From Bolinopsis microptera (Eukaryota; Ctenophora; Tentaculata; Lobata; Bolinopsidae), in NCBI RefSeq assembly GCF_026151205.1, contig NC_087077.1, positions 10,221,983 through 10,285,982 on the forward strand: a DNA stretch of 64,000 nt, written 5' to 3'. Below the pieces are notes generated by a model. That model was not told the origin of the DNA. It worked only from the letters and a program-made list of their open reading frames with translations, and ran no database searches. Every line of letters starts with the position of its first letter. Positions within the stretch are counted from its first letter, which is position 1. Position numbers and translations under genes: made by a program. Below are positions 22,244-47,210 of this stretch, one piece after another.

Positions 22244-25200
22244 TTATACTGATGAGTCCTCGTGAGAATGGAATTCAATAGTTACGACTTGATCAGTTTT
22301 TGGTGCTGCTTTTTCATCCAGGGCAATGTCTGACGCTCTACCAGAAGGTCCTTCTGAAGGTACGTCTCTATATTCATTTTTAGATGTTTTCACAGATTCA
22401 GCTGATTTTTCATCACATTCTGCTGACCTGAGAGTATGATCTACATCAGCTTCAACCCTGAGAGTATGATCTACATCAGGTACAACACTGAGAGTAAGAT
22501 CTACATCAGGTACAACACTGAGAGTATGATCTACATCAGGTTCAACCCTGAGAGTATGATCTACATCAGGTACAACACTGAGAGTATGATCTACATCAGA
22601 TCCAACACTGAGAGTATGATCTAGATCAGGTACAACACTGAGAGTATGATCTACATCAGGTTCAACACTGAGAGTATGATCTAGATCAGGTACAACACTG
22701 AGAGTAAGATCTACATCAGGTACAACCTTGAGAGTATGATCTACATCAGGTTCAACCCTGAGAGTATGATCTACATCAGGTTCAACACTGAGAGTAAGAT
22801 CTACATCAGGTACAACACTGAGAGTATGATCTACATCAGGTACAACACTGAGAGTATGATCTACATCAGGTTCACCACTGAGAGTAAGATCTACTTCAGG
22901 TTCAACACTGAGAGTATGATCTACATCAGGTTCAACACTGAGAGTAAGATATACTTCAGGTACAACCTTGAGAGTATGATCTACATCAGGTTCAACACTG
23001 AGAGTATGATCTACATCAGGTTCAACCCTGAGAGTATGATCTACATCAGGTTCAACCCTGAGAGTATGATCTACTTCAGGTACAACACTGAGAATATGAT
23101 CTACATCAGGTACAACACTGAGAGTATGATCTACATCAGGTTCAACCCTGAGAGTATGATCTACATCAGGTTCAACACTGAGAGTATGATCTACATCAGA
23201 TTCACCACTGAGAGTAAGATCTACTTCAGGTTCAACCTTGAGAGTATGATCTACATCAGGTACAACACTGAGAATATGATCTAGATCAGGTACAACACTG
23301 AGAGTATGATCTAGATCAGGTTCAACCCTGAGAGTATGATCTACATCAGGTCCTGTGCCACTTCCTTGAGCTGCCATTTCGATTACTTCTATTTCTGGTC
23401 GTGTAGGACGTCTAATATTTGCTGTTATTTCTTCAATCGATGTACGAATGCGTTCTCTTGCATTTTGATAAAAGGTTGAGTTGGTGATTCTAGTAGAAAT
23501 GAAATGAAACGGTGTTCTTAGTATGCTTGTCACGATATCGTCATAAAGCAGAGGGTTTATGACAGAATTAATTGGAAGAATTAGCATCGAAAATAGACTG
23601 TACCAGGGAGTGGCGTCGAATAGTTCCAAGAAGTGCAGTGCGCATGTAACTATGAAGGGCACCCAGCAGAAAAAGTCAGTGGTTATTATTATGGTAATCC
23701 TCCTGTTCATTTTTCTGTTTCGTTGAGCAATTCGGTTATCACCTTGTGGATTAGCCACACTATTTGCAGAATTTCTGGAGACCACGGCTATTAAAATGTA
23801 TGATACGGTTATGAAGATGAAGCAGATGAAGTTTAACATGAGTATACTCCAAACAAACAGTTTTTGCGGATCGTCTTTAGTTACGAAGTACTTGAAGAGG
23901 CATACTCCGTCATTTCCGTAGAAATCACGCTTATTGACGGTCTTACTGTGATCTTCATATTCAAAATCATGGGAGTACATGTTTCTGACCATTTCAAGAA
24001 TCTTTTCCCAGCTTAAGTTTGTTGCTTTCATTCGTCCGTAATAAGCCTCAAGGACTGGGATGATTTTTTGTTTGTCTGCAGTTCCGATGAAAAATCGCAG
24101 TTCGTCAGCAAAATTAACTCCATTTACAAAGAAGTCCTCAAAGACACTAATTATGGGTGTTACAGCTACAGCAATAGACACAATAACAATGAAGGACATT
24201 CCGATCATTACTTTTAGATACTTCGCAAGGTTGATTTCTCCTGGGACTCTCAAAGGGCCTCTTATCCCATTCAACCTCACCATGCTCAAACCAGCCATAG
24301 CGAACAAGGATACCTGTGAACCTATAGTGCTAAGAACACCTAACATAGAACATTCAAAGCTTGTTAACCATTTGATTTGCTCACGGCAATAGTCCTTTTT
24401 GAATATTACCATGTCGTATATAATTATAATCAGTAAGTAGCATCCTACCAAGAAGTCTCCAAATGATATAAGAATGATGAATGACTTGTTCACCAACGCA
24501 ACTGAGGTAGAACATCGCTTCAATGTCCCAATGTTCTTTGCCATGATGATAAGGTTTGCTAGTACTGCTAGACCTCCTATAACTAACGTAACCCCTTTGA
24601 TGAACGATGTTTCCAGAATACTTCTTGAACATTGCTCATTGCATTCATCGCTGAGATCCAAACAATCAAATTGTTGGTCACATTTCTTAGTTATAGGGAT
24701 GAGATTGCCAGAGGCATTGCACTGAAAATGATTGGTACATCCTGCCTCATCTGAACCATCCTCACAATTTTTGACTAAATCACACACTTGTGAGTAGTCC
24801 AAGCATGTGATTTTGTCGTCACACACGAAGTAACTATTACTATAAATATTTCCGTGAGACTTGGTTAAGAACACGAGATATTTATTGTTGGCAATAGTTC
24901 CTATCCTTTTGGGAAATTGATCTGGACACACTTCATACCTTGGTAGGTTCCTTAGTGGGCAAGTAGAGTTTTCACATCGATTTGTGCAACTGGTATAGAT
25001 ATAATGTTCTCCGAATAGATAATCACAATCTTTTGTGCCGTTCGGGAGTTGCAATTCTGTTTTTGTTTCAACTCCAAACATATCATGATCGGGAAAAATG
25101 AAATCTTCCACTGTGCAGTTTTCGTTTCTAAGGTTTCTTATGCTTTCGACTCCTTTGACGCAGAATGATAACTGCTTGACAAGGCCATTTTTCGTGCCTA

Positions 25201-26523
25201 ATGAAGAGGTTGAAATTGTCTGAGAACGTCGGGAAAGTGAACAGATCCTGTTCTCATTTCCACACGTCTCTAGTCCGTCACAAAGATTTTCATATTCCAC
25301 ATAACCTGGATCTCCCCAAGGGCAAACAAAAACATTGCTACAGGTTTCGTTACTTGTCACAAACCGCAGCGTTTTTTCCTTCCCGCACGTGGGCCAGATC
25401 AAGTGATTTTCATCACCCCCATCTTTACAGTCCTTTATACCGTCACCTAGCCAGGTTAAAGGTATTGTTATATTACCTGCATTTCCATAACGTCTCTCAC
25501 AGGTCGCTTTTGTTTGATTGCGACAAATTCGATGCAATTCGTCAACTCCGCTAGCACAATCCGAGAAGTTGCTGCACAAAAGATGCTTATGAACAGTGCA
25601 ATTTTTGGATATCGCTTGGCATTGATTTTCTATACTGTCATCGCAAATCGCGATCTTTTTATCTGAGCAGATCATGAATTTAGAGATTGTGGATTTATAT
25701 CCATTTACATCGCAAGTTAGTCCCACTCTTGATGGATCGCTACAATTTACTTGAGACTCCTTGGTATCAATACAATAGTCATTCGAAAAATGTGAATCCT
25801 CAGTCTCACTGTCGGACGTAAAGTATGGGAATGCTGAACATCTGGTGAAGTTATGGATGGCCAAAAAATACAGGTCACGATTGAACAGACTCCTCGTCAG
25901 ACATGTGTGCTTTGTTGTCTCCGTAACTCCACAACTGGTCGTGTCTTCACGATCTTCACATTGTGATCGATGCATACCAAAAGAATCAGATACACATATC
26001 AAACTAGGAGGTACATATATAATCTTACCGGCCTCTCTAGATGATTTACAATATATACCGTAAGTAAATCCGTTGCAGACTGCCTCGTCCTCACAGTTGA
26101 GACTGTCACATTTATCATTACAGATTTTGGTAGAGTCAACTTGGGCTCCACTTCGCATTGTTGTTATATCAACAAACCTATTACATGCAGTTTTATCAAG
26201 GTCTTCATTCGAGCAATCTGAATTACCATTGCATAGATCCATGGATAATAGAATACGATTATTACTTTGATTCAGGCACAAGTAATTCTCACACAATATT
26301 TCATTGTTTGTTATTCTAAATCCGGGTAACCTTACATCACACGCTTGATAATAGTGGGGATCGTCGGAGCAGACTTGTCCCTTAATATTGAACTGATACT
26401 GGTAGGATGTGCTGTAATAATGGTAATAAATCTCTTCAGAATTGTGGCAGAGATACATGTCAAACATGCATTTGTACTTTAGGAACCCTCCACGTTCTTC
26501 AATATTTCTATCATGACAGTAAT
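22244..26523 (-). CDS. LDLa-domain class A GPCR, large 3' exon
   Basis: A 1,426-residue coding exon. The first about 660 residues are a Cys-rich ectodomain with several diverged LDL-receptor class A units and one canonical one (CLDYSQVCDLVKNCEDGSDE). A seven-helix rhodopsin-type domain follows, with GDFLVGC in TM2, a Cys in extracellular loop 2, WVPFIVTCALHF in TM6 and NPLLY in TM7. Architecture resembles LDLa-containing relaxin/LGR-like receptors, but I see no leucine-rich repeats. The cytoplasmic tail has about 31 decapeptide repeats and ends in DSSV, a class I PDZ-ligand pattern. The open frame extends to 26563 but starts with TTG, not ATG. At 26524 the minus strand reads ttttaatttcag then ATTACTGT, a phase-1 acceptor. 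The true N-terminus therefore comes from upstream exons, most likely the LDLa array at 40850-47210. The ligand is unknown. Confidence 0.92.
22427..23353 (-). repeat. 30-bp coding minisatellite in the GPCR tail
   Basis: About 31 tandem 30-bp units encoding decapeptides of the form DVDHTLSVEP, DVDHTLRVEP or DLDHTLSVVP. The reading frame is kept throughout and variants differ mostly at a few fixed positions. Every unit carries a Thr and most a Ser, so the tail could be a phosphorylation or scaffold platform; that is inference. Confidence 0.95.
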
Positions 26524-27500
26524 CTGAAATTAAAAGTATTGAAAATAGAAGAAAATAGTACAAAGCTTATAAGAAATTTGGAGGCATGAATTATAAAGCT
26601 AAACCGAATTATCGATAGTGAAGCGGTAAATTTTGTGAAAAGTCAGGTTAATATATCCCGAGAACGGAAACTAAGCCCACAACCTCTTGATATTCTCTAG
26701 TTAACTATTATCCTATTACTTATTACCGCTTAGCTATCTCAGTCCACTCCATCCCGACAATTATTTAAAGATTTTTACTACAGATACCATGCCGTTAGTG
26801 ACCCTGGTCATTAGGAAAGTTCGCATGAGATGGACCACGTTTTTTCCAATTTAACTTTAGATTCTAAAGTTTAGAAGATTGTCACAGGAAAAACTTTTAA
26901 GATAGGCATATGATATTTCACATGTATAGTTCAACTTATTATTACCATATTATTGAGTTTCGATTAATAAAATTTTTGAAAGCTAACGAGTCATTTTACA
27001 TTTTGTTTTCTAATGACAGCTTCCAAGCATGCAATAAAAGTTTAAACGTGTTTAAATTTAATCGATTCATCAAATCTCACTTTTTCAGAATCCGAAGAGA
27101 AGAGGGACATTTTTCGCTAATTGAGTTCAAAATGAGGCTAACTTGCTGACATTCTATGAAACATGCTTTTTAGATTGGTATCTGGTCAACCATATTTTAA
27201 CACTACATTTACTCGATGGTTTGATCTGTTAGCCCCAATTTCGCCTCCCGTAGAAAGGGTAGCCTCGATCAAACCACACATAAATTATGATAAATTCTCA
27301 ATAACCTTCGGGCTGCAATAACAAGTTTTTTAGTGGGTTTATAAACTGTTTCCGTACATTAAAGTTATGACAATGCAGTCGAATTCTTTATTAGCCTCAT
27401 TTTGGCCTCCTATAACAAGTACTAGTAGTCTCGGCGATTTCTGAAATGTTGAGCTTGAAGAGGATGAATCAATCTTTATTGTTGACACATTACCTATATA
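26524..27500. other. GPCR intron, part next to the 3' exon
   Basis: AT-rich intron sequence (minus-strand gene) between the acceptor at 26524 and the inverted-repeat-bounded segment starting at 27501. A segment at about 27340-27500 (gtcgaattctttattagcct ... gatgaatcaatc) is repeated directly at about 28015-28170. No gene seen. Confidence 0.5.
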
Positions 27501-28014
27501 CCTTATCGGACCTCATTTGGACGGACATTAAATGAACGGACATTATTATGAACGGACATTAATATGAACGTTAGAAGGCATTCAAAACCATCAAAAATCC
27601 GAATTTTTAAAGTTTTTTTAACGTTGTTTTATTTCAGCAAATGATTTTTTAATCCATTTTTTATACAATAAGTAAGAAAATTAGTCGTTTAGCAGTAAAA
27701 ATGTTAAAATTTGTGTACATGATCAGTGTCTAATATCGCATCTCATCTTCATGATCATCAAATGTGTTTTCATGCATGAAATAGTGTATGCTTAAAGTTA
27801 AAGCATCAGTGATTTCTAGCTTTATGGAAACCTTTTTTTATCAAACTACCCCGGTCCTGCATTTCAGTTTTAACTTTTACAAGCCATTCATTTTACCCTC
27901 TCAAAAGGTGGCTACCCTCTTTTTCACCTCGAATATTTGAAGCTTAGATATCGTTTAAGTATAATCCAAAGGAATTTCATGTGCAACATGGATATCAAGT
28001 AACTTGTGAGTTGT

Positions 28015-28330
28015 TGACCTATTTTCGTACATTAAAGTTAAAATGTGGTCGAATTCTTTATTAGCCTTATTTTGGCCTTCTTCAATATAGACTCGACGAT
28101 TTCTGAAATAATGAGCTTGAAGAGGATGAATCAATCTTCATTGTTGATACATTCGATAGTCACAATACCGAACCTGCTCGAAAATATACCTTAGGGGACC
28201 TTATTTGGACGGACATTACTTGAACGCTGGAGGCCCTAGCGTTCACGTTAATGTCCGTTCAAATAAAGTCCGTTCAATTAATGTCCGTCCAAGTTAAAGT
28301 CCGTTGAATTTTGTTTCAAAAATTTTTCCA
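28015..28330. repeat. Second partial copy of the TA-type inverted-repeat family
   Basis: After a direct copy of the 27340-27500 flank, the sequence near 28193 reads ggaccttatttggacggaca, then runs of gttcaaataaagtccgttca and similar to about 28315. This is a variant or truncated copy of the family that bounds the 13-kb segment. Confidence 0.6.
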
Positions 28331-28489
28331 TTTCGAACTTTTTGTCCAGAATATGACAACTTTTTAATTTTAGTCAATTTCAATTGCTATCATTAGACTA
28401 AACTAAATTAGGTAGAATGTAGGAGTGACGAACCACATACAGCTATGGCTGGAGAGTCTACGCCCAAAATCAAGATGGGATCAACACTG

Positions 28490-31400
28490 TGTGCTGTGCT
28501 ATTTGTTTTCGCTGTTTGTTCTTGGAATGTTAGGGGCTTGGGTAGTCCAGACACTGCAGTTAATGATAAAATTCAGTCTGGACGACTTTTGAAGAGGGAG
28601 TGACTGGGTAATGACTGCAAAAGGTACGGTATGGACATTGTGGGACTACAAGAAACTAAGTGCACTAATCAGGTGGATAACATACTTCACAACAACTACA
28701 GACTGTTAATTTTTGATCAGAAAGAACAATGTCATGGGGGTATTGGATTTGTTATTAGCCCTAAACTGCAACCTTTCATCACAACTTTCAAACAGATCTC
28801 TGATAGAGTTGGGTATATTTATTTTTGTTTTCCTCTCAAGTGTGGTAGCAATAAGAATTTCAGAATCATCAACAGTTATGGTCTCACATCTCTTCGTGCT
28901 CAACAACACCCTGACAAACTGTCTCAGTTTTATAGAGAGTTACACAATGTATCCTCTACTCCATCAAAATGGAAAATGTTCCACTGCGGCGATTTCAACT
29001 CAAAGCTGGGTAAACGAACTAGGGTTGATGAACAATTAGGTCTGGAAGGTTTGATAGGTAGACATGGTATTGGGACTAGAAATGAAAATGGGGGGCATTT
29101 GCTTGAATTCATGGTTAAAGAAGACCTAACAGCATGCAATGCTTTGTTTGATCATCCAAGTAGGCACAAACTAACTTGGACTGGTGAACACAGGACTAAG
29201 AGAAATACTCCTATATACGCTCAACTTGACTATGTGCTTTGTAGGAGGAGGTCTACGGTTTTAATAAAGGACAGCAGATCATACGGAGGCGCTGAGTTAC
29301 GATCTGATCACAAACCTGTTGTAACTCGATTAACGCTGAAAAATCATGTTCTCATTCACAAAACCAAAAAATCAGATAGCACTCAGTTTGACTGTTCAAC
29401 TCTCTACAGGAATAAAGAACTCAGAGGGAAATATCAAAGTGTGATTGCTGAAAGGTTATCGGGTAAAACTTATCCAGATGACCCAAATGAGAAAATGAAT
29501 GAACTTTTTAGTGACATACGTGCGTGTGCTGAAGAAACTATACCACTGAAAGGAAAATCCTCAAAAAAAATTTTTTCAGTGATCTAACAGTAGCCTCATT
29601 AGTTGCTAAAAAGCGTGATCGGACTCTGAATATAAAATCAGCCCCAAGTGGTAGTGATGTTAGTGGAGATAGGAGAGAAGTTAGAAAGATTCAGAATAGC
29701 ATTTCTAAGAGACTTGTGCAAATAAATAACATGAAGGCTGACGGTCTAGCAGAAGAAATAAATAACACTGAAGATGCTAGAAAGATGTTTGAAGCTTCAA
29801 GATCTTTAGCTGGAATGAAAAATTCGGGTAACATAGTGGTCAATGATATCAACAACAACCCTATTGGTACTGATTTAGGGAAAGCAAACACAGCGAAATC
29901 TTTCTTTGAAAAGCAACTAACAGAAGGAGTTGAAGCTGGCCTGCAACCTTTTACCTGCGATCCAAAACCACTTGATAACCCCATTACACCAGTTGAAGTT
30001 AAACTTGCTGCAAGTAAACTCAAATCAAACCGTGCCAGTGGTCCCGATAATCTCCAGAATGAGTTGATAAAGTACGCCCATCCAATCACTTTTGAGAAGT
30101 ATGCTGAGGCAATTAACGATTCATTTAGTGAGAACAAATACATAAGTTCGATAGGACAAGGTATTGTGACTCCTCTACAGAAGCCCGGTAAACCTGAAGG
30201 TCCCCTCACAAGCCTTAGACCACTTACATTGTTAAACGGATCGAGGAAGATGCTCACTCAAATTGCCTTAAAACGGGTTGAGAGTAGAATTGACAACTAC
30301 ACCATGCCATGGCAGAGTGCTTCCTACCTCTTAAGAGAGGTAGGAGCTGCTCTGACATTGTGTGGGCTCAGAGAATGCTCATATCTGTTGTGATGAGGAA
30401 GAAATGGACATTTAGCAAAATGGGTATTGATATGAGAAGAGCTTTTGATACCGTGAAACGGGACACTATTATCAATGTTTTGAAAGATGCTGGTTGTTCG
30501 GAGGACGACATTCGCTTAGTTCAATACCTTCTATCGAATACTCTCCTTAGTTCGTGTTAACTCCTCACTGTCGGAAGAGTTTGAAAGTTTACTCGGAGCA
30601 TTTCAAGGTGACAGTTTATCTGGAAAGCTATTCACACCTATTCTTGCAGCAGCCTTACACCACCTCAGAGCTGTATCTGGGAGACCAAACCCACCAGTAT
30701 CAGAACTAGGTTTTCCAACTGAGTGGGAATATTCAGACGATTGTGACTTTGCTGACGAGGACATCAAGAAACTGAGAATTTTCCTTCCTGCAGTGAAGGA
30801 GATTCTCAAAGACTGGAACCTCCAAGTAAATGAAAGTAAAACTGAATTCAGTACCTTCTACCTGGCGAAAAATCAGATAAAGACACAAACGGTCAGCCAT
30901 TAGCTAATAACGAACCATGGCGAAGTAACAAGTCACTAGGTTCCTTACTGTGTACTGAGAAGGACATTCAAAGAAGGAGAATCCTAGCTGAGATTGCTTT
31001 TAAGAACTTTGAAAAAGTATGGTTGTCCGGTAAGAAAATCTCCCTTGAAAGAAAGCTGAGGTTATATGATGCTCAAGTTGTATCTGTATTGATTTACAAC
31101 TCAAATAGTTGGAGTCCTAAGAAAGCAACCATGGAGAAAATGGACACACTCAATCGTAGACACCTCAGGTCCATTTTAAACATCAAATGGCCTAAAGGTA
31201 TGATAAGCAACAAAGCATTGTATGAAAGGTGCAAAGTTGAAAAGTTATCCAAGCGTATCGAACACCAGCGGTGGAAGATGTTTGGACACATTCTCAGGAG
31301 TATGGAGAACACCCCAGCCCAAACGGCTCTCTCTTTTGCTATTGAATCAGATAATTTATTCATTGGAAGATTGGGGAGACCTAGAATGAACTTGTTATCC

Positions 31401-31591
31401 GGTTTAAGAAGTGATTTAAGTTGTAGAAATTTGCAAATGGACAACTTGCATGAATTGAACGAAATTAGAGATATAGCTGCATGCAACAGATGTTGGGAAA
31501 ATCTTTTTCAAGGGTACAGTTTACCGCATTAAGGTATTTTGAAGAATAATTTTTGTCGGTAAGATCCTGTTTTATAATAATAATAATAAGG
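28490..31591 (+). pseudogene. Degenerate non-LTR retrotransposon (APE-type LINE)
   Basis: An inactive LINE. Its N-terminal apurinic-like endonuclease begins near 28500 (CSWNVRGLG), is broken by a stop near 28600, and is open from 28631 to 29587. Endonuclease motifs seen are LQETK, GDFNSKLG, RNENGG, LDYVLCRRR and SDHKPV. The reverse transcriptase is split over several frames: 29716-30393 (ASGPDNLQNEL, ITPLQKPGKPEG-like), 30309-30560 (DMRRAFDTVKRD), about 30545-30903 (GAFQGDSLSGKLFTP, then YSDDCDF in place of the usual YADD), and 31023-31532, a typical LINE C-terminus (ERCKVEKLSKRIEHQRWKMF). The 3' end is a (TAA)n tail at about 31570-31591. Frameshifts and stops show it is dead. Confidence 0.88.
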
Positions 31592-34521: not shown

Positions 34522-37500
34522 ATGAATTCTCTCTCAAATTTTTCAAACTCTCCTACTCTCCCTACTAATGGGTCAGAGCAGGATCAACAACCTAACATCG
34601 CCCCTCCAGCACGCCGTGAGAGGAAGGCTCGCACTGAGACTTCCACTCGTCACACGTGGAGCAAGGAGGACAACATACAGCTCATGACGCTGTATTACCA
34701 GAGCCAACCATCCCGCTCTGGTTATAGAAGGAGACTCCGGTCACTGTGGGATGATGCCGGACTCTTCACTTGTACAGAACAAAGATTGGCAGACCAAGCA
34801 AGGTCAATCAGAAATAATAATCTCCTCTCAGACATAGAACTATTGGAGATTCGAGGTACTCTTCCACCTAGCGTAGTGGAAGAGGCTCCAACAACGACAA
34901 CTCAAGCTCTACCCACAGTCTCCCAAGCAATCAGGACGTTGAGGGATGCAACTATCCCAACTGTTGCCGCCGAAGAACTCACCCCCACCGCAACGGTACC
35001 TGATTTTGACAAGGAGGCAATCATTGAGCGGCTAAAAACCCTCTTAGAAGACCCTTCAGTGATAGAAACCAAGCCCCTGAGACATGTGAACAGAAAGAAG
35101 CTTATGGAGGAAACATCTCTCATTAACTCATGTATAGCAGAGATCCCTACTTCTTCAATCACTGAAACCAACACTCTATTGCTTGCAGGAGCACATTTAG
35201 TCAGCGAAAGACTTGGTGAAAAACCTGCAAATAAGAATGCAGAGAAGCGGAAAACTCCGCTATGGAAAAGAAGAATCGAAGATAAGATTACCCAGGTGAG
35301 GAAAGACATCTCTTATCTTGAGGAGAAGAAGAAAGGTATTACCCTTAAACAAAAAATACTAGAAGGGCTCAACAGACGTCACCCCCTGTTGAAGAAAAAG
35401 GGTATATCATGCATCATTGAGGAGCTCAAGCAACGTCTACGTGCAAAAGCAGCTAAGATAAAGAGATTTAATAAAAGATGCGAACGATACCACCAGAACA
35501 AGTTGTTTGGAAACAACCAGAGGCAGTTCTACAGAAACCTTCAAACAAACCCTGAAGAACAGGATATCTCCCACCCTGAGGCTGACAAGGATTCTTGTTT
35601 GAAGTTCTGGAAGAACATATGGGAGCAGCCGGTTGAACATAACAGTGATGCTGAATGGTTACCGGATGTCAGAACAGCACTAGCCTCAGCAGATGAACAG
35701 CGACAGTTTGTTATAACTAACACCCTGGTTGCAGATAGAGTGAAGAAAATGACCAATTGGTCCTCTCCTGGTACAGACGGACTGCATGCTTATTGGATAA
35801 AGCACTTTAAAGAACTCCACAATAGGATTGCAGATCAACTTATGAATTGCCTAACCAACGCTGATATCCCTGACTGGATGACATTGGGACGCACGTACCT
35901 GCTCATAAAGGACCACTCCAAAGGACCCATCCCAGGCAATTTCAGACCTATTACATGCTTATCAGCTATGTGGAAACTGTTCACTGGTCTAATCTCAGAT
36001 TCCATATACAACCATTTAGACCAGCAAAAACTCCTCCCCCCTGAGCAGAAAGGGTGCAAGAAGAAGAGCAGAGGATGTAAAGAACAGTTAATGATAGACA
36101 AACTCATTCTGAAGAACTGTAAACGAAGGAAGCGGAACCTGAACATGACGTTTATAGACTACAAGAAGGCGTATGATAGCGTCCCACACTCTTGGATTCT
36201 GTCTTGTTTGACCATGTGTGGTATCTCTTCATCCATCATAGATCTGTTTGAAGCCTCCTTCAAGCAATCGTATGTTAACCTGATGCTTGGTAAAGTTTCC
36301 CTTGGGAGAATTAAAATTAATAGAGGTCTATTCCAAGGAGACTCAGTATCACCTATTCACTTTATCATGAGTCTTATACCCCTGTCCATTCTTTTGAATA
36401 AGCATGACATAGGATACTCTCTGGAGAAGGGAGGTCGACCGAAAGTGTCACATAGGCTATACATGGACGACCTCAAGTTGTATGCCGAGAGTGAAGACGA
36501 AATGCAAACACTGGTTAATACCACAGCAGAGTTCAGCAGTGACATAAAAATGGAATTCGGGCTAGAGAAATGTGCCGTGGTGAAGGTGAAGAAGGGAGCA
36601 AGAGCCGTTTTCGAAGGCATCTCCCTACCCACAGGTGAACATATCCATGAGTTGGAGGACGAGGGCTATAAGTATCTGGGAATACTAGAAGCCAATGATA
36701 TACTGCACAAAGATATGAAAGCACTGGTTACAAAAGAGTATATCAGAAGAGTTAAAAAGGTTTTAAAATCCCAGCTTCATGGCAGGAATAGTATACAAGC
36801 AATTAACACCTGGGCTGTACCTGTGATAAGATATGGAGCTGGAATTCTCTCATGGAATGCTGGAGAGACCAAAGCCTTAGATGTCAAGACCCGGAAACTG
36901 ATGAGGATAAATGGAGCTCACCACCCCCAAGGAGATGTTGATCGGTTATACGTAAGCCGTCAACTGGGTGGCCGTGGGCTACATAGTATAGAGGAAGTCG
37001 TAAAGAGAGAGGAGAATGCACTCACCACTTATGTGGTGAGAAGTAGAGGCCCAGAACTGATTGCTCTGAAGGACTACTTTGTCAAAGACAAGATACTCTT
37101 GGGTGAAGAGATAGAGAAAGATATCGACCGAACACAACGCGAGGAAATCCGCAAGGAGAAGTGGACTGCTAAAGTGATGCACGGACAGTTCCCAAGGCAG
37201 ATGATGGGTATAGCGGACCCGTTAACCTCTTGGAACTGGCTCACTCAACAAGACTTGAAGAAGGAGACAGAAGGATTGTTGATAGCAGCCCAAGATCAAG
37301 CACTTAGGACGAATTATGTGAAGCACAGGATTGACAAAACACCTGGCTCTTCTCCCCTCTGCAGACTCTGCAGAAATCATTACGAGACAATAGACCACAT
37401 ACTGAATGGGTGCCCAAAACTTTCACAGACAGAATATAAGTGTCGGCATGACAAAGTAGCTGCCGCATTGCACTGGAGTCTGTGCAAGGAATACGGCTTC

Positions 37501-37929
37501 CCACGCAGTAAAAGGTGGTACGAACACCGGGCAGAGAAGGTGCTGGAGAACGAAAAAGTCAAGATATTGTGGGACTTCCATGTCCAGTCGGACCACGTTA
37601 TCGAACACTGCAGACCGGATCTCCTCCTGGTAGACAAGGTAACCAACGCAGCAACTATCATTGACGTTGCAGTCCCAGGAGATACCCGGATCCTGGATAG
37701 AGAACAAGAAAAGATACTGAAATATCAAGACCTAAAAAGAGAAATTAAGAAGAACTGGAATTTACGAAAGGTCACAATCGTCCCTGTGGTGATAGGCGCA
37801 TTAGGAACTATCACCATTAACTTTCGTAAACACCTCGACGCAGTCCACTGCAATCTGAGCATCTCTAATCTCCAGAAGACAGCTCTGCTTGGATCAGCCA
37901 GAATTCTCAGGATGGTCTTAAACATATGA
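34522..37929 (+). CDS. R4/Dong-like non-LTR retrotransposon protein (RT plus restriction-like endonuclease), intact
   Basis: One intact open frame of about 1,135 residues from the ATG at 34522; the frame is open upstream to 34465 but only with a GTG. In order: a Myb/SANT-like segment (RHTWSKEDNIQLM, residues about 40-100); a basic linker; reverse transcriptase with SSPGTDGLHAYW, NFRPITCLSAMWKL, FIDYKKAYDSVPH, GLFQGDSVSP and catalytic YMDD at 36460-36471; a zinc knuckle CRLCRNHYETIDHILNGC (about 37360-37414); and a C-terminal restriction-like endonuclease with RPDLLLVD then IDVAVPGD (about 37612-37680), fitting PD-(D/E)XK. This order and YMDDLKLYA point to the R4/Dong/Rex6 group. No internal stops, so it may have moved recently. 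Confidence 0.93.
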   Translation: MNSLSNFSNSPTLPTNGSEQDQQPNIAPPARRERKARTETSTRHTWSKEDNIQLMTLYYQSQPSRSGYRRRLRSLWDDAGLFTCTEQRLADQARSIRNNNLLSDIELLEIRGTLPPSVVEEAPTTTTQALPTVSQAIRTLRDATIPTVAAEELTPTATVPDFDKEAIIERLKTLLEDPSVIETKPLRHVNRKKLMEETSLINSCIAEIPTSSITETNTLLLAGAHLVSERLGEKPANKNAEKRKTPLWKRRIEDKITQVRKDISYLEEKKKGITLKQKILEGLNRRHPLLKKKGISCIIEELKQRLRAKAAKIKRFNKRCERYHQNKLFGNNQRQFYRNLQTNPEEQDISHPEADKDSCLKFWKNIWEQPVEHNSDAEWLPDVRTALASADEQRQFVITNTLVADRVKKMTNWSSPGTDGLHAYWIKHFKELHNRIADQLMNCLTNADIPDWMTLGRTYLLIKDHSKGPIPGNFRPITCLSAMWKLFTGLISDSIYNHLDQQKLLPPEQKGCKKKSRGCKEQLMIDKLILKNCKRRKRNLNMTFIDYKKAYDSVPHSWILSCLTMCGISSSIIDLFEASFKQSYVNLMLGKVSLGRIKINRGLFQGDSVSPIHFIMSLIPLSILLNKHDIGYSLEKGGRPKVSHRLYMDDLKLYAESEDEMQTLVNTTAEFSSDIKMEFGLEKCAVVKVKKGARAVFEGISLPTGEHIHELEDEGYKYLGILEANDILHKDMKALVTKEYIRRVKKVLKSQLHGRNSIQAINTWAVPVIRYGAGILSWNAGETKALDVKTRKLMRINGAHHPQGDVDRLYVSRQLGGRGLHSIEEVVKREENALTTYVVRSRGPELIALKDYFVKDKILLGEEIEKDIDRTQREEIRKEKWTAKVMHGQFPRQMMGIADPLTSWNWLTQQDLKKETEGLLIAAQDQALRTNYVKHRIDKTPGSSPLCRLCRNHYETIDHILNGCPKLSQTEYKCRHDKVAAALHWSLCKEYGFPRSKRWYEHRAEKVLENEKVKILWDFHVQSDHVIEHCRPDLLLVDKVTNAATIIDVAVPGDTRILDREQEKILKYQDLKREIKKNWNLRKVTIVPVVIGALGTITINFRKHLDAVHCNLSISNLQKTALLGSARILRMVLNI

Positions 37930-38728
37930 TATTATTGAGAGTATAATACACTGTAGATATTCTATATTTAGTTTATTCTTCACTGGATACTGTAATAAAC
38001 ACTTTTTACCTGGTCCTCTTATATCTCTTCCCTTGCTATGCAAGCCCTGTCTCTTGTTTATACAATTTTTAACCCGTATATTGGGTAGACTGTGTATTTG
38101 TTATGTATTTTATATTAAATACAGTTTTGTGTACAAGTAATTATTGTTATTTACTGGACTAAGGGGTATACATGTGTTGGAGTTTTTCTCTTATTCTTCT
38201 TCTCTTGCTCTGCATGCCCTGATTCTTGTATAAACATGATGTTTGTTTAAATATTGTATATTCTTGTATTGATTGTGGTATTTTGTGGGTCAGATTCAGC
38301 AATACCCAATGGGTACTTGCTGAATCACTGTTTTATACACTCTGTAGCCAGTCCCTGTGTTCCGTCCCTTGCCCTGCAAGCCCTGTTTCTTGATAATACA
38401 GCATTTATTTATCGTGTATTACATTGTAGTATGTAATAAACATTTGTAGTAGCGTAGGATTGTTTTAATTTCTTTTTGCTAGGTTTTAGAATATTTATTT
38501 GTATAATTTGTGATTGTTTCTCCCGGTTTTCTTCCCTTGCGTAGCAAGCCCTGTCTCTTGTAAAAACAACCTCGAAAGATTTGTAGATACACATAGTCTC
38601 TACACCTTTACCCTCTGGTCCCTAGGGTCAGCTGATCCCGGGCCAGAGGAAAACTACCGACTGCCAAGGTTTGACGCCTAGGCAGTCGAGACCTCTTATT
38701 GAGACCCTTTATAATAATAATAATGATA
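37930..38728 (+). mobile_element. 3' UTR and TAA tail of the R4/Dong-like LINE
   Basis: Noncoding tail with repeated cttgc(t/g)(a/c)tgcaagccctg(t/a)(c/t)tctt-like motifs. It ends ccctttataataataataa at about 38708-38728. A small inverted repeat (ggtccctagggtcagctgatcccgggcc region, about 38625-38645, and gactgcc...ggcagtc, about 38658-38687) could fold near the 3' end and might serve target-primed reverse transcription; that role is inference. Confidence 0.85.
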
Positions 38729-39648
38729 GGCGCATTAGGAATTATCACCATTAACTTTCGTAAACACCTCGACGCAGTCCACTGCAATCTGAGCATCTCT
38801 AATTTCCAGAAGACAGCTCTGCTTGGATCAGCCAGAATTCTCAGGATGGTCTTAGACATATAATATAATTGAGAGTATAATACACTGTAGATACTCTATA
38901 TTTAGTTTATTCTTCACTGGATACTGTATTAAACACTTTTTACCTGGTCCTCTTATATCTCTTCCCTTGCTATGCAAGCTCTGTCTCTTGTTTATACAAT
39001 TTTTAACTCGTTTATTGGGTAGACTGTGTATTTGTTATGTATTTTATATTATACAATTTTGTGTACAAGTAATTATTGTTATTTGCTGGACTAAGGGGTA
39101 TACATGTGCTGGAGTTTTTCTCTTATTTTTCTTCTCTTGCTCTGCATGCCCTGATTCTTGTATAAACATGATGTTTTTCTTATATTGTATATTCTTGTAT
39201 TGATTGTGGTATTTTGTGGGTCAGATTCAGCAAAACCCAATGGGTACTTGCTGAATCACTGTTTTATACACTCTGTAGCCAGTTCCTGTGTTCCGTCCAT
39301 TGCCCTGCAAGCCCTGTTTCTTGATTATACAGCATTTATTTATCGTGTATTACATTGTAGTATGTAATAAACATTTGTAGTAGTGTAGGATTGTATGAAT
39401 TTCTTTTTGCTAGGTTTTATAATATTTAATTGTATAATTTGTGATTGTTTCTTCCGGTTTTCTTCCCTTGCGTAGCAAGCCCTGTCTCTTGTAAAAACAA
39501 CCTCGAAAGATTTGTAGATACACATAGTCTCTACACCTTTACCCTCTGGTCCCTAGGGTCAGCTGATCCCGGGCCAGAGGAAAACCACCGACTGCCAAGG
39601 TTTGACGCCTAGGCAGTCGAGACCTCTTATTGAGACCCTTTATAATAA
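38724..39648 (+). mobile_element. 5'-truncated second copy of the same LINE
   Basis: From tgataggcgcattaggaatt the sequence repeats 37788-38711 at high identity: the last about 45 codons of the ORF and the whole 3' UTR, again ending gaccctttataataa. It abuts the TAA tail of the first copy, so a 5'-truncated insertion landed in the TAA repeat. Small differences (for example an indel near 39050) show that it is separate from the first copy. Confidence 0.92.
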
Positions 39649-40089
39649 CTAGCAGGAAACCGTCTTACCCTAAAGTGGTGTCAAGACTCAAGAGACTAAA
39701 ATAATTATTACCTATTTAATTCGCGTTTTTGACACCACTTGGGGGTCCAAATTTTGGGCTCTAAAACTCCTATTTCTTGGCGAATTTTTTATTTTTTCAT
39801 GCTGATTTGAAGGCCATTAAAGCATTTGACCCAGTCAAAAAAGTTTCAGTTGTATATCTTTTACGGTTTTTGCGGAAAGTCGTGTTAAAGTTGATGCCGT
39901 GGTGTCAGTAAAATGGCACGGATAAATAAATATATATATATCGTCTCGCTTTATATATAGTAAGATAATAAGACTAAACTATATCGTTGAATCAATAAAA
40001 ACAAGGTATCATAAAATTTTAACAATCTGAATTGTAAATATCACATTATTGCATGATCACTATCTTGAAGTTGATCTTCGGCTTCTTCT
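39649..40089. other. Segment after the LINE tails, with a short inverted repeat
   Basis: aagtggtgtcaa at about 39676 and ttgacaccactt at about 39732 form a short inverted pair. The rest is AT-rich with a TATATA run near 39930. No gene seen. Confidence 0.45.
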
Positions 40090-40092
40090 ACC

Positions 40093-40332
40093 TCATTTTG
40101 TCTTACAAGTTACAACTGGTTGTCTGTCCAACTCGTAGTCGTACCGGGCAATGAACGATCCCAACTGCTCTACTAGAGAGATACTTGAATGCCTAAAGTA
40201 CAGATTAAGCTTTATCTCTAGCTCCCCACTTGGTATAGGCGACCTTCGGTGGCTTATGTCAGCTACGATACCTTCTACTATACCACCCATCTCGATAAAG
40301 TAGAAGACAAACCGGGATATCTCCCTGCACGA
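40093..40332 (-). pseudogene. Unidentified coding fragment next to the right inverted repeat
   Basis: The minus strand is open from about 40350 to a stop at 40093. It encodes roughly SSSNGFSCREISRFVFYF, then IEMGGIVEGIVADISHRRSP and LVEQLGSFIARYDYELD. Composition looks like real protein, not noise, but I recognise no family. It abuts the right terminal repeat of the 13-kb segment, so it may be a remnant of that element's own gene or a captured host exon. No splice sites were assigned. Confidence 0.35.
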
Positions 40333-40849
40333 AAACCCATTTGATGAAGATGATATGTGATATTAGATAATGATCATGTACACATATTTTAACATTTTTA
40401 CTTATTATAGACTGCTTTTCTTGCTTAGTGTATGAAAAATGGATTTAAAAATCATTTGCTAAAATTAAAAAAACGTAAATAAAAAGTTGAAAAAAATTCG
40501 GATTTTTTATTGCCTTCTAGCGTTCATATTAATGTCCGTTCATAATTATGTCCGTTCAAGTAATGTCCGTCCAAATAAGGTCCGATAAGGTATACAAAAG
40601 TATACTTGTTAGCCTCATTTCACCCTCTCAAAAGGTAGTTAGCCTCATTTTCACCTCGAATATTTAAAGCTTAGATCTCGATGATAGATATTTAAAGCTT
40701 AGATCAAATTTATAGAGCTAATAAAAGGGCTCGAAGCATGAATAATGTTTCAAAACCCATTATGTGTGTTTTTTATGGCTTCACGGAAAATAAAATCGTA
40801 ACGATTATTCTTATTAATTTCAGCAATTCAAGCAAATCTGAAGACGTAC

Positions 40850-43800
40850 CTTTACTGTCACAGATGGTTGTATTCTTGTCTGAACTATCTCTACAGTAGG
40901 CATGGTAGGCACATAATTTATTCCTGCCGATACATTGTAGACCGGTCGGACATTTTACTCTGTCTTCTCTACAGGTGTAATCTGTTTGGGCAATAGTTAC
41001 CTGAATAGTGTATAGTGGTACTAATTTAACACTACAAAGGAATAATTGTTCGTGTATCGGCGCTTTATTTGTTAACAGCTGATACTGTTAATAGCAACTG
41101 CCAAACCTTTACAGAAAGCTCCGTTCTCATCTGAACCATCTGAACAGTCTTCTTCACCGTTACACATGTTATACTCGTCGATACATTGTAGACCGCCCGG
41201 ACATTTTACTGTTCCTACTACACAGGTGTAATCTGTTTGGGTAATAGTTATCTGTGTTAAAGTGATACTAATTTAACACTATGAAGGAATTTGTTCGTGT
41301 ATTGGCGCTTTATTTGTTAACAGCTGATACTGTTATTTAATAGCAACTGACAAACCTTTACAGAAAGCTGCGTTCTCATCTGAACCATCTGAACAGTCTT
41401 TTTTACCGTCACACATGTTATACTCGTCGATACATTTTAGACCGCCCGGACATTTTACTTTTCCTCCTCCACATGTGTAATCTGTTTGGGTAATAGTTAT
41501 CTGTAAAGTGTATAGTGGTACTAATTTAACACTATGAAGGAATTTGTTCGTGTATTGGCGCTTAAATTGTTAACAGCTGATACTGTTATTTAATAGCAAC
41601 TGAAAAACCTTTACAGAAAGCTCCGTTCTCATCTGAACCATCTGAACAGTCTTCTTCACCGTCACACATGTAACTCTCCCAGATACATTGTAGACCAGTC
41701 GGACATTTTTCTTTTCTTCCTCCACAGGTGTAATCTGTTTGGGTAATAGTTATCTGTATAGTGATACTAATTTAACACTATGAAGGAATTTGTTCGTGTA
41801 TTGGCGCTTAAATTGTTAACAGCTGATACTGTTATTTAATAGCAACTGCCAAACCTTTACAGAAAGCTCCGTTCTCATCTGAACCATCTGAACAGTCTTT
41901 TCTACCGTCACATATGTTATACTCCCGGATACATTGCAGACCGGTCGGACATTTTACTCTTCCTACTACACAGGTGTAATCTGTTTGGGTAATAGTTATC
42001 TGTATAGTGGTACTAATTTAATGTTCCGAAAGAATTTGTTCGTGTATTGGCGCTTAAATTGTTAGCAGCTGATACTGTTAATAGCAACTGCCAAACCTTT
42101 ACAGAAAGCTCCGTTCTCATCTGAACCATCTGAACAGTCTTCTTCACCGTCACACATGTTATACTCCAAGATACATTGTAGACCGCCCGTACATTTTACT
42201 CTTCCTCCTCCACAGGTGTAATCTGTTTGGGCAATAGTTACCTGAATAGTGTATAGTGGTACTAATTTAACACTACAAAGGAATAATTGTTCGTGTATCG
42301 GCGCTTTATTTGTTAACAGCTGATACTGTTAATAGCAACTGCCAAACCTTTACAGAAAGCTCCGTTCTCATCTGAACCATCTGAACAGTCTTTTATACCG
42401 TCACACATGTTATACTCGTCGATACATTGTAGACCGCCCGGACATTTTACTGTTCCTCCTACACAGGTGTAATCTGTTTGGGTAATAGTTATCTGTATAA
42501 TAGTTATCTATATACTTATATAGTGGTACTAATTTAACACTATGAAGGAATTTTTTCGTGTATTGGTGCTTAAATTGTTAACAGCTGATACTGTTATTTA
42601 ATAGCAACTGCCAAACCTTTACAGAAAGCTCCGTTCTCATCTGAACCATCTGAACAGTGGTTTCTACCGTCACACATGTAATACTCGCCGATACATTGTA
42701 GACCGGTCGGACATTTTACTTTAACTCCTCTACAGGTGTAATCTGTTTGGGTAATAGTTATCTGTATAGTGGTACTAATTTAACACTATGAAGGAATTTG
42801 TTCGTGTATTGGTGCTTAAATTGTTAGCAGCTGATACTGTTATTTAATAGCAACTGACACACCTTTACAGAAAGCTCCGTTCTCCTCTGAACCATCTGAA
42901 CAGTCTTCTTCACCGTCACACATGTAACTCTCCCAGATACATTGTAGACCAGTCGGACATTTTACTTGTCCTCTTCTACAGGTGTAATCTGTTTGGGTAA
43001 TAGTTGTCTGTATAGTGGTACTAATTTAACACTATGAAGAAAGTTGTTCGTGTATTGGCGCAGCTAATACTGTTAATAACAACTGACAAACCTTTACAGA
43101 AAGCTCTGTTCTCATCTGAACCATCTGAACATTCTTCGTCACCGTCACACATGTTAAACTCGCTGATACATTGTAGACCGCCCGGACATTTCAGTCTTTC
43201 TTCTCCACAGGTGTAATCTGTTTGGGTAATAATTATCTGTATAGTGTATAGTGGAAATAATTTAATACTATGAAGAAAGTTGTTCGTGTAATGGGGCTTA
43301 AATTGTTAACAGCTGATACTGTTATTTAATAACAACTGACAAACCTTTACAGAAAGCTCTGTTCTCATCTGAACCATCTGAACATTCTTCGTCACCGTCA
43401 CACATGTTAAACTCGCTGATACATTGTAGACCGCCCGGACATTTCAGTCTTTCTTCTCCACAGGTGTAATCTGTTTGGGTAATACTTATCTGAATAGTGT
43501 ATAGTAGTACTAATTTGATACTATGAAGAAAGTTGTTCGTGTAATGGGGCTTAAATTGTTAACAGCTGATACTGTCAATAACAACTGATAAAGTTAAACC
43601 TTTACAGAAAGCTCTGTTCTCATCCGAACCATCTGAACAGTGGTTTGTACCGTCACACATGTAATGCTGATCGCTGATACATTGTAATCCACCCGGACAT
43701 TTTGCTTTTCCTCTCATACAGGTGTAGTCTGTTTGGGTTATAGTTATCTGTTTACCCCCAGTTCCATAGCCGGATATTATGCCAAATTATTAGACGGAGG

Positions 43801-46800
43801 TCCATTTCCCGTAGATCATCTCCGGAGATGATTATCCGGCTCCGTCTACTGTATTAGACGGAGATGAAGCTCTCCGGGAATTTCTCGGAGATTAATTCCC
43901 GGAGACCAACGCGCGCGGGCGAATTAGCTGTCTTTCCGAAAAGGTATAACAAATTTGGTACTGTGAAATTCTCACAGTCTCTAGAAATCAATGGTACAAA
44001 AAATTTTAAACTCCGAGCAAGTTTATTTTTATCGTGCACCCACTAGTAGATGGTCTCCGGATAAGGTTATGGAACTGCAAACCGGAGAAATATCCGGAGA
44101 AAAATCAGGAGACGATCTCCGTCTAATAATTTGGCATAATATCCGGCTATTGAACTGGGGGGTTATAGTTATCTATATACTTATTACTTATATAGTGCAG
44201 TGGTACTAATTTAACACTATGACCATGAAGGAATTTGTTCGTGTATTGGTGCTTAAATTGTTAACAGCTGATACTGTTAATAGCAACTGACAAACCTTTA
44301 CAGAAAGCTCCGTTCTCATCTGAACCATCTGAACAGTCTCCGTCACCGTTACACATAAAATCCTCCCAGATACATTGTAGACCAGTCGGACATTTTACTT
44401 GTCCTCTTCTACAGGTGTAATCTGTTTGGGTAATAGTTATCTGTATAGTGGTACTAATTTAACATTACGAAGGAATTTGTTCGTGTATTGGTGCTTAAAT
44501 TGTTAACAGCTGATACTGTTAATAGCAACTGACAAACCTTTACAGAAAGCTCCGTTCTCATCTGAACCATCTGAACAGTCTCCGTCACCGTTACACATAA
44601 AATCCTCCCAGATACATTGTAGACCAGTCGGACATTTTACTTGTCCTCTTCTACAGGTGTAATCTGTTTGGGTAATAGTTATCTGTATAGTGGTACTAAT
44701 TTAACATTACGAAGGAATTTGTTCGTGTATTGGTGCTTAAATTGTTAACAGCTGATGCTGTTACCTTATCAGACTTTATTTGTACGGACATTAATCGGAC
44801 GCTGAATGTCCTAGTGTTTATTTTAATGTCCTTCTAAAATTTTGTCCGTTCACGCGATGTCCGGTCAAATAATTTCCGATAAGGTAACAACAATTAACAA
44901 ATGACAAACCTTTACAGAAAGTTCTGTTCTCATCTGAACCATCTGAACAGTCGTTTCTACCGTCACATATTGAATTATGTTGCTCATCGATACATTGTAG
45001 ACCGCCCGGACATTTTACTCTTCCTGCTCTACAGCCGTAGTCTGTTTGGGTAATAGTTATCTGTTTATAGTTATCTATATACTTATATAGTGGTACTAAT
45101 TTAACACTATGACCATGAAGGAATTTGTTCGTGTATTGGTGCTTAAATTGTTAACAGCTGATACTGTTATTTAACAGCAACTGACAAACCTTTACAGAAA
45201 GCTATGTTCTCATCTGAACCATCTGAACATGAGTCTTCTTCACCGTTACACAAGTTATACCCGTCGATACATTGTAGACCGGTCGGACATTTTACTCTTC
45301 CTCCTCCACAGGTATAATCTGTTTAGGTAATAGTTATCTGTATAATGGTACTAATTTAACACCCATGCTGTTAAATTCGCCAAATTTTTGTCAAAAAGTA
45401 CGGCGCGTATTTAGAGTTTTCAAAAAGTACACGAATAATTCGCCAATTTACAACGTACATTTTTAATTTTTAGGGCTGTTAAATTCGCCAAAAAATGCGC
45501 GAAAAATTCGATAAAAATGCGGCTGTGGGAATAGAACGTGCAGCATTCTTGAGTCTATAATCTAGTTGGATATGTGAATTGTGACGTGTTACTTCAAACA
45601 TGCAGATCTCAAACTTACAAATCTCGGCAAGTAGACTAGACTGTGGAGGAAATTAAGTGATTTCAAGTTTATCGAGAAAAGCTAGTTTACTCCATAACGT
45701 CTTCGGTATATGAGCTAAATTAAACCCCTTAGCGATCTTGGTCAGTACCTACGCTAGTGATCACTAACCAGTAACCACGCACGTGTTGCGGGAAGCACAT
45801 GTTTTGGCAACATTGCACCATACAAAGCCAACTATCATGAACATATTGATGCGGACACGTGATTTCCTCTTCTCGTATTTTTTATATTTTTTTAAATGCG
45901 GCAATTTTCAGAGAAAAATTCGTATGCGAATTAAATTCGAATAATACGTTTAGTGCGAATTTAACAGCATTGTTTAACACTATGACCATGAAAGAATTTG
46001 TTCGTGTATTGGTGCTTAAATTGTTAACAGCTGATACTGTTACTTAATAGCAACTGACAAACCTTTACAGAAAGCTCCGTTCTCATCTGAACCATCTGAA
46101 CAGTCTTTTCTACCGTCACACATGTAATACTCGCTGATACATTGTGGACCACCCAGACATTTTACTGTTCCTCTCATACATGTGTAATCTGTTTGGGTAA
46201 TAGTTATCTGTATAGTGGTACTAATTTAACACTATGAAGGAATTTTTTCGTGTATTGGTGCTTAAATTGTTCACAGCTGATGCTGTTACCTTATCAGACT
46301 TTCTGACTTTATCTGAACGGACATTAATCGGACGCTGAATGTCCAAGCGTTCAATTCCACTTTAATGTCCGTCTAAAATTATGTCCGTTCACGCGATGTC
46401 CGGTCAAATAATTTCCGATAAGGTAACAACAATTATTATTAACAACTGACAAACCTTTACAGAAAGCTCCGTTCTCATCTGAACCATCTGAACAGTCTTT
46501 TATACCGTCACACATGTTAAGGTAATACTCGCTGATACATTGTAGACCACCCGGACATTTTACTCTTCCTACTACACAGGTGTAATCTGATTGGGTAATA
46601 GTTATCTGTATAGTGGTACTAATTTAACACTATGAAGAAATTTGTTCGTGTATTGGTGCTTCAATTATTAACAGCTGATGCTGTTACCTTATCAGACTTT
46701 ATTTGAACGGACATTGATCGGACGCTGAATGTTTTAGCGTTCATTTTAATGTCCGTCTAAAATTATGTCCGTTCACGCAATGTCCGGTCAAATAATTTCC

Positions 46801-47210
46801 GATAAGGTACCAACAATTAACAAATGACAAACCTTTACAGAAAGCTCCGTTCTCATCTGAACCATCTGAACAGTCGTTTCTACCGTCACACATGTTAAGG
46901 TAATACTCGCTGATACATTGTAGACCACCCGGACATTTTACGACTCCTACTACACAGGTGTAATCTGTTTGGGTAATAGTTATCTGTATAGTGGTACTAA
47001 TTTAACACTACGAAGGAATTTGTTCGTGTATTGGTGCTTAAATTGTTAACAGCTGATACTGTTATTTAATAGCAACTGCCAAACCTTTACAGAAAGCTCC
47101 GTTCTCATCTGAACCATCTGAACAGTCTTCGTCACCATCACACATGTAACTCTCCCGGATACATTGTAGACTGCCCGGACATTTCACTTTTCCTCTTCTA
47201 CAGGTGTGAT
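40850..47210 (-). CDS. Array of 20 tandem LDL-receptor class A exons (5' part of the GPCR gene)
   Basis: Exons (low-high): 40850-40981, 41107-41232, 41356-41481, 41609-41734, 41855-41980, 42097-42222, 42348-42473, 42617-42742, 42863-42988, 43092-43217, 43345-43470, 43600-43728, 44296-44421, 44538-44663, 44910-45041, 45190-45318, 46063-46188, 46455-46586, 46833-46964, 47085-47210. Each is 126, 129 or 132 nt and encodes one LDLa domain with six Cys and usually the Ca-binding end CSDGSDEN. Each starts AT-TAC after a conserved acccaaacag acceptor and ends AAA-G before a gtttgt-like donor, so all are phase 1-1. The 3'-most exon (40850) is diverged (CRDSSDKN) and has a gtacgt donor. Its terminal G joins the AT-TAC start of the GPCR exon at 26523 to give Asp. 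Signal peptide and start exon were not found. Confidence 0.92.
43753..44161. mobile_element. PIF/Harbinger-like MITE in an LDLa intron
   Basis: Terminal inverted repeats of about 45 bp: the left end is cccccagttccatagccgga, and the right end, reversed, is ccccagttcaatagccggat. Flanks carry TTA on both sides, matching the 3-bp TWA target of PIF/Harbinger elements. It has no transposase. An internal segment (about 43920-44048) recurs inverted at about 47460-47590. Confidence 0.75.
44764..44884. mobile_element. TA-target MITE, copy 1
   Basis: A 121-bp element starting CCTTATCAGACTTTATTTG and ending tcaaataatttccgataagg, flanked by TA. Inverted tips of about 20 bp match the ends of the 13-kb segment at 27501-40590. 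It sits in the intron of the LDLa unit at 44910. Confidence 0.88.
45363..45972. mobile_element. hAT-like nonautonomous element
   Basis: A 610-bp insertion with inverted ends ccatgctgttaaattcgc and gcgaatttaacagcattg, flanked by a perfect 8-bp duplication, tttaacac (45355-45362 and 45973-45980). The 8-bp duplication fits hAT. No transposase coding; it lies in an LDLa intron. Confidence 0.88.
46289..46423. mobile_element. TA-target MITE, copy 2
   Basis: A 135-bp copy of the CCTTATC...GATAAGG family, flanked by TA, at the same intron position as the copies at 44764 and 46687. Confidence 0.88.
46687..46807. mobile_element. TA-target MITE, copy 3
   Basis: A 121-bp copy of the same family, flanked by TA, next to the LDLa exon at 46833. 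The upstream context gctgatgctgtta is the same as in the other two copies. Confidence 0.88.

Follow-up and report, generated by a model that had tools for sequence, protein, structure and literature searches.

Does a single gene run from an array of LDLa exons to a seven-transmembrane (7TM) receptor exon in the ctenophore Bolinopsis microptera, or do two neighbouring genes lie there? The question concerns the minus strand of a window of 64,000 nucleotides (contig NC_087077.1, forward-strand positions 10,221,983 to 10,285,982; coordinates below count from its first letter), for which an earlier note, made from the letters alone, had proposed one G-protein-coupled receptor (GPCR) gene with 20 or more LDLa domains and no leucine-rich repeats, interrupted by a transposon-filled intron. 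We consider it probable that one gene is present, in which a leader exon, 20 LDLa exons and the receptor exon are joined across an intron enlarged by a transposon. The case is circumstantial; one gene is favoured because a candidate leader exon lies upstream of the array, because no usable leader for the receptor was found outside the transposon, and because inverted repeats bound most of the gap. Leader, array and receptor together read 2310 aa in frame, with the final stop only.

The LDLa exon array

The array lies at 47210-40850 on the minus strand and consists of 20 LDLa exons, with lengths of 126, 129 or 132 nt:

47085-47210, minus strand, LDLa exon 1 (starts AT-CAC)
46833-46964, minus strand, LDLa exon 2
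46455-46586, minus strand, LDLa exon 3
46063-46188, minus strand, LDLa exon 4
45190-45318, minus strand, LDLa exon 5
44910-45041, minus strand, LDLa exon 6
44538-44663, minus strand, LDLa exon 7
44296-44421, minus strand, LDLa exon 8 (protein identical to exon 7)
43600-43728, minus strand, LDLa exon 9
43345-43470, minus strand, LDLa exon 10
43092-43217, minus strand, LDLa exon 11 (protein identical to exon 10)
42863-42988, minus strand, LDLa exon 12
42617-42742, minus strand, LDLa exon 13
42348-42473, minus strand, LDLa exon 14
42097-42222, minus strand, LDLa exon 15
41855-41980, minus strand, LDLa exon 16
41609-41734, minus strand, LDLa exon 17
41356-41481, minus strand, LDLa exon 18
41107-41232, minus strand, LDLa exon 19
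40850-40981, minus strand, LDLa exon 20, the diverged last repeat (70% identical in DNA to exons 1-19)

Every one of the 20 exons is of phase 1-1, free of stops, preceded by AG and followed by GT, and all 19 introns between them run from GT to AG. When spliced, the array codes for 850 aa in which Pfam recognises 20 LDLa stretches (E 3e-134), and such a run of 20 open LDLa exons is beyond chance. The exon lengths differ by threes only, while the introns range from 103 to 744 nt. It had been claimed that all 20 exons start in phase 1 with AT-TAC-ACC-TGT; the phase is indeed common to all of them, but this start is found in 14, the other six being ATCACACC, ATTACACA (two exons), ATTATACC, ACTACGGC and ACTACACC. 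The phase-1 end of exon 20 restores GAT (Asp) with the receptor exon, exactly as described before. Its donor, AAG/GTACGT, has a score of 8, the highest jointly with that of exon 12; the retention of this donor despite the diverged coding part is counted for one gene. A scan of the three minus-strand frames of 47211-62209 (E up to 0.1) found no more LDLa domains upstream. Short inverted-repeat elements, akin to the ends of the transposon described below, are present in array introns (44811-44890, 46362-46436, 46685-46809).

The receptor exon and its family

The features of the receptor exon are as follows:

22244-26523, minus strand, receptor exon: Cys-rich LDLa-bearing ectodomain, class A 7TM and repetitive tail (Pfam LDLa and 7tm_1; family alignments)
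24629-24733, minus strand, the exon's top-scoring LDLa (open reading frame (ORF) residues 612-646; Pfam)
23480-24607, minus strand, 7TM region, approximate (ORF residues about 654-1029; AlphaFold helices; Pfam 7tm_1 at 880-1008)
22428-23351, minus strand, 30-bp minisatellite of 30.8 copies, coding for the 10-residue tail repeat PDVDHTLSVE and variants

The receptor frame has 1440 codons from stop to stop (22244-26566, minus strand). Its reported lack of a 5' ATG was confirmed, the frame beginning with GCT-TTG, and so was the phase-1 acceptor, where CTTTTAATTTCAG/AT-TAC-TGT ends its intron side at 26524 and the exon runs from 26523. The hydrophobic LYYFLLFSILLIS at the frame start was rejected as a signal peptide, since it corresponds to the polypyrimidine tract and lacks an ATG. 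Pfam finds LDLa (3 stretches) and 7tm_1 in this frame, and none of its leucine-rich repeat families was found in the receptor exon (E up to 1) or in the array (E up to 0.1), which bears out the absence of such repeats claimed before. The top matches of the receptor exon among solved structures (phmmer) are FSHR, TSHR and LHR, with relaxin receptor 1 ninth. The AlphaFold model of the exon has a mean pLDDT of only 53, and its ectodomain is unusable. No relative was found in viral contigs.

Residues 560-1030 as a query returned 1001 proteins at E up to 1e-3; in our protein searches the best 120 of 1001, the best 120 of 1549 and the best 120 of 2173 matches were seen. Five of the 120 listed relatives are named, four from Mnemiopsis leidyi and one from Bolinopsis microptera. 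Judged by these alignments, the receptor exon is a member of a large ctenophore LDLa-7TM family, homologous through ectodomain and 7TM, with an identity of 49-60% to the 42 aligned relatives of the 120 listed. By a simple motif, the conserved GFLKY start is found in 26 of the 120, and the other 94 begin further in or differ. Ten of the 120 (9 of them among the 26 with GFLKY) have Phe/Ile-Ser-Asp-Cys at the receptor start, which is expected if the ORF caller read through a phase-1 CAG/AT acceptor, as we infer from the protein alone. For five out of six relatives the N-terminal match begins within about 20 nt of 26523; that of the sixth (P0101) extends by 9 residues into the polypyrimidine tract, at an E of 0.09, which is weak. 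These matches give the acceptor good support.

The phase-1 CAG/AT start thus seems, from the relatives' proteins, to be a trait of the family and not a sign of the array. Phase 1 together with AT-TAC, offered earlier as the clue to joining, was rejected as proof, since relatives appear to share the phase-1 CAG/AT start without an array, and the agreement of phase between array and receptor exon has by itself a chance of about one in three. Two relatives, P0089 and P0078, have repetitive tails too, unrelated in sequence to the receptor's tail repeat, and the tails of this family seem to gain new repeats repeatedly.

The candidate leader exon

Upstream of the array lies the following exon:

51942-52044, minus strand, candidate first coding exon, signal-peptide-like MPLPSEIIILISLLFSAITSIEPIALFTDATSAS, donor CAG/GTAATT, ending in phase 1

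It came from a scan for an ATG with a hydrophobic stretch and a GT donor on both strands and in all phases, for which a home-made consensus and hydropathy were used. At a donor score of 7 or more, the scan of the window gave 12 rows on the minus and 4 on the plus strand, and 52044-51942 is the only one with a donor score of 8 (of 9), as well as the one with the top 9-residue hydropathy (3.49). The runner-up, 11246-11158, has a hydropathy of 3.44, a donor score of 7 and phase 2. At the level of 52044-51942, which was set after seeing the exon, none was obtained in 12 Markov controls. Self-comparison found no overlap of this exon with repeats.

The gap between array and receptor

The gap between exon 20 and the receptor exon measures 14.3 kb, matching the intron of about 14.3 kb that had been expected, and most of it looks to be taken up by one element:

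28185-40594, no strand assigned, inferred terminal-inverted-repeat (TIR) transposon with nested retroelement domains and a palindrome inside

Its inverted repeats (28185-28226 and 40553-40594) are 42 nt long, 95% alike and flanked by TATA on either side, and a second inverted pair (27497-27752 and 40344-40594) shows 85% over 260 nt. Endonuclease (PF03372) and reverse transcriptase (PF00078) domains lie inside on the plus strand. Around a 533-nt centre, the palindrome at 32185-34082 has arms of 590 and 93 nt that are 100% alike (counting gaps, 685 nt at 99%). Such a near-perfect structure reflects either an inversion-duplication that happened very recently or an artefact of the assembly. The transposon also holds a head-to-tail direct repeat of 928 nt with 96.7% identity (37790-39648).

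Outside 28185-40594 the gap amounts to 1661 + 255 bp (1.9 kb) with 48 ATGs, and at none of them does a hydrophobic leader come together with a phase-1 GT donor scoring at least 5. Relaxed leader candidates in the gap (26530-40850) all lie at 29034-38751, inside the transposon; a different setting gave 4 rows that share 3 donors, as compared with a control mean of 2.8. The candidates at 29-39 kb were set aside as lying inside the transposon, several of them antisense to the reverse transcriptase frame. The leader-like MGFETLFMLRALLLAL at 40760, just 3' of exon 20, was also discarded, because its stop comes before any GT donor with a score of at least 5. The minus strand of 26560-40849 gave no Pfam domain with E up to 0.1. 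Seven hydrophobic stretches of the gap could be membrane anchors, and all of them fall within the transposon, at 29217-38766. A 3' exon belonging to the array could not be recognised in the gap.

One gene or two

The one-gene reading has come out as the better-supported model, on new evidence (the leader and the contents of the gap), while the phase and AT-TAC clue on which it had been built is weak. Several observations weigh against it. When the donor of exon 20 is skipped, 25 further codons with a hydrophobic end follow before a stop. The leader scan is a crude one that can overlook exons which are split or weak, and at a donor score of 7 and a hydropathy of 2.2 the Markov controls gave a mean of 0.67 candidates per upstream region. 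The right end of the transposon may be 27497 instead of 28185, and two pairs of direct repeats (27346-27491 with 28019-28153, and 27888-27953 with 40615-40680) cross its boundaries, which does not fit a simple single insertion. The 28 poly(A)-like hexamers of the gap can be added here, though they were judged uninformative.

The relatives tell against joining as well. In three of the five named ones, P0051 and P0101 (Mnemiopsis) and P0089 (Bolinopsis), a leader of 22-23 residues, signal-peptide-like as judged by hydropathy (2.6-2.9), directly abuts the receptor start; P0044 has other sequence there, and P0094 starts further in, so that such a leader may not be universal in the family. The search for an LDLa array with 7TM in related species, which the earlier note had suggested as a check, found none among the 120 listed of 1001, and at most 69 residues precede the aligned region in these 120. 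This absence is informative mainly for the five named models, because the ctenophore entries of the protein collection seem, from their starts, to be mostly single-frame predictions, in which 42-residue exons cannot appear. With the joined protein as a query, scored on the array, no 7TM protein was found in the best 120 of 1549. In addition, Bolinopsis has an LDLa array without 7TM in P0298 (LRP4-like by name, 622 aa), the only match named as ctenophore among 120 listed, which has 45% identity over 30% of the query and, differing from the one-gene product, consists of a leader, 6 LDLa and a final part without Pfam match.

Two neighbouring genes are possible on these grounds, yet in our judgement rather unlikely. 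The array with the 52044 leader would then code for an LDLa protein that is secreted or anchored and bears some likeness to P0298, and the receptor would be a typical member of the family, with a short leader exon of its own that escaped the scan or was displaced by the transposon. The leader-plus-receptor make-up of the named relatives and the architecture of P0298 agree with such an arrangement, the phase-1 start of the family predicts a separate leader exon, and the read-through of exon 20 would supply a hydrophobic end and a stop. It is opposed by the 1.9 kb outside the transposon, where no usable leader exon is found, by gap candidates that lie inside the transposon and at control level under relaxed settings, and by the lack of a recognisable 3' exon for the array. 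The C-terminal part of P0298 matches the window at best with E 0.6, which is chance, and its presence in the window was rejected. That the receptor is a transposon-damaged pseudogene without its first exon, and the array an unrelated relic, we regard as very improbable: a transposon with nested retroelements does separate the two and the receptor frame does begin without an ATG, but its 1440 codons are open and keep the family's level of identity, frame and splice letters are intact in 20/20 array exons, and exon lengths vary only in threes next to introns of very uneven length.

Sequence evolution of the array

DNA identity is 86.4% among exons 1-19 and 92.0% among the 14 short introns, and exon 20 reaches 70% with the rest. 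Divergence was compared in 14 matched exon-intron units (14 of the 19 introns and their exons; the five introns longer than 160 nt were omitted, as were exons 2, 3, 4, 6, 8 and 20), where the nonsynonymous value (pN) is 0.138, the synonymous value (pS) 0.105 and that of introns 0.080, figures that gene conversion between units could distort. The pN exceeds intron divergence (bootstrap P 0.033), while pS is not above that of introns (P 0.199). The pN/pS ratio is 1.32, with a codon bootstrap range of 0.85-2.25 and 11% of replicates at or below 1, and codon models gave an omega of 1.56 (GY) and 1.49 (MG); the GY log-likelihood is -810.3 and falls to -812.5 when omega is held at 1 and kappa at 2 (2.2 log units lost). 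Gene-wide positive selection is not established, as the bootstrap range of pN/pS includes 1.

All six cysteines, and the Gly that follows CD/CN, are invariant across exons 1-19, and the SDGSDEN block is altered once there. The variable columns are 4, 5, 7, 18, 20, 28 and 29, a split from the other columns that was picked after seeing the data and carries no test; judged by LDLa structures, these columns presumably adjoin the ligand- and calcium-binding site. Exons that change more than their introns give a hint of recognition of a changing ligand, and diversification of the binding surface of the array is likely from these comparisons, with selection unproven.

Proposed origin and function

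With one gene preferred, we propose a minus-strand gene from about 52.0 to 22.2 kb with the 2310-aa product given above. Its signal-peptide exon 52044-51942 would be spliced in phase 1 to the 20 symmetric LDLa exons, and the array in turn to the receptor exon across an intron presumably enlarged by the TIR transposon and its nested retroelements; the receptor exon would contribute a Cys-rich LDLa ectodomain, a class A 7TM that by its best matches seems most like the LGR type, and the repetitive tail. As to origin, a symmetric LDLa exon may have entered the family's apparent phase-1 intron between leader and receptor exon, and may then have multiplied by tandem duplication. In the protein, the signal peptide would export the N-terminus, the array could act as a multivalent calcium-dependent binding arm with diversifying surface residues, and the Cys-rich ectodomain, with RXFP1 as a model, might relay binding to the 7TM for G-protein signalling, while the tail repeat may scaffold signalling. 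The leader joined straight to the receptor also reads in frame (1460 aa), and the phase symmetry of the LDLa exons permits alternative use. It is nevertheless improbable that they form a combinatorially or exclusively spliced cassette giving many binding variants from one gene, a Dscam-like arrangement on a GPCR.

Ctenophores may be the sister phylum to all other animals. If array and receptor are joined, the product would be a GPCR in which LDLa modules number more than 20 and leucine-rich repeats are lacking, and it would show how a symmetric LDLa exon can enter the leader intron of a receptor and then multiply. The 1001 matches also point to a very large ctenophore receptor family.

Comparison with known receptors

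The receptor is alike to the ctenophore LDLa-7TM receptors of Mnemiopsis (ACHWQZ_G002129, ACHWQZ_G002581) and Bolinopsis (LOC134821010) through ectodomain and 7TM; if joined to the 20-exon array of the window, it differs from the 120 listed relatives, none of which carries one. With type C LGRs (RXFP1/2, GRL101) it has in common the LDLa placed N-terminally to a class A 7TM; unlike them, it has no leucine-rich repeats that we found and, if joined to the array, 20 extra LDLa in tandem exons. The likeness to relaxin-type and GRL101 receptors drawn earlier is thus only partial: LDLa ahead of 7TM holds, whereas leucine-rich repeats were not found. The LRP/LDLR proteins (LRP2, LRP1B, lrp13b) also have long LDLa strings and are many of the array's best listed matches; in contrast to these, the minus strand of 47211-62209 and 26560-40849 showed no EGF or YWTD with E up to 0.1, and LDLa exons 1-19 of the window are 86% alike in DNA.

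RXFP1 has an N-terminal LDLa tethered to leucine-rich repeats and essential for activation (PMC4837482), and GRL101 is an LGR with multiple LDLa domains, as are cnidarian LGRs; a legend in the same source compares sea anemone, comb jelly and sponge receptors by leucine-rich repeats, hinge and 7TM (PMC4079206). Other papers list leucine-rich repeats and LDLa among the extra domains of rhodopsin-type GPCRs in choanoflagellates (PMC12716839), describe an independent radiation of GPCR clades in ctenophores (PMC13231562), and place a Beroe gene with relaxin receptor 1 as top match in a comb-plate and aboral-organ set (PMC11184263). The passages covered of PMC11797021 hold nothing on the ctenophore LDLa-7TM receptor family. 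Among the open papers listed, none describes the array-7TM architecture by title or abstract start, and none is by these dedicated to this family.

Other features of the window

Part of an SH2 domain (56294-56398, minus strand, E 4e-6) is the sole Pfam match with E up to 0.1 in the minus-strand frames upstream of the array to about 62.2 kb, and is probably an exon of a different, upstream neighbour gene. An 828-codon frame at 5700-8186 (minus strand) has a membrane-anchor-like start, a long 18-bp-minisatellite repeat and a cysteine-bearing end; Pfam gave nothing for it with E up to 0.01. A frame of 412 codons at 17687-18925 (minus strand) shows weak acetyltransferase (GNAT) similarity, under the Pfam cut-offs. 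A 184-bp satellite occupies 1-2993, with 16 copies and 94% matches.

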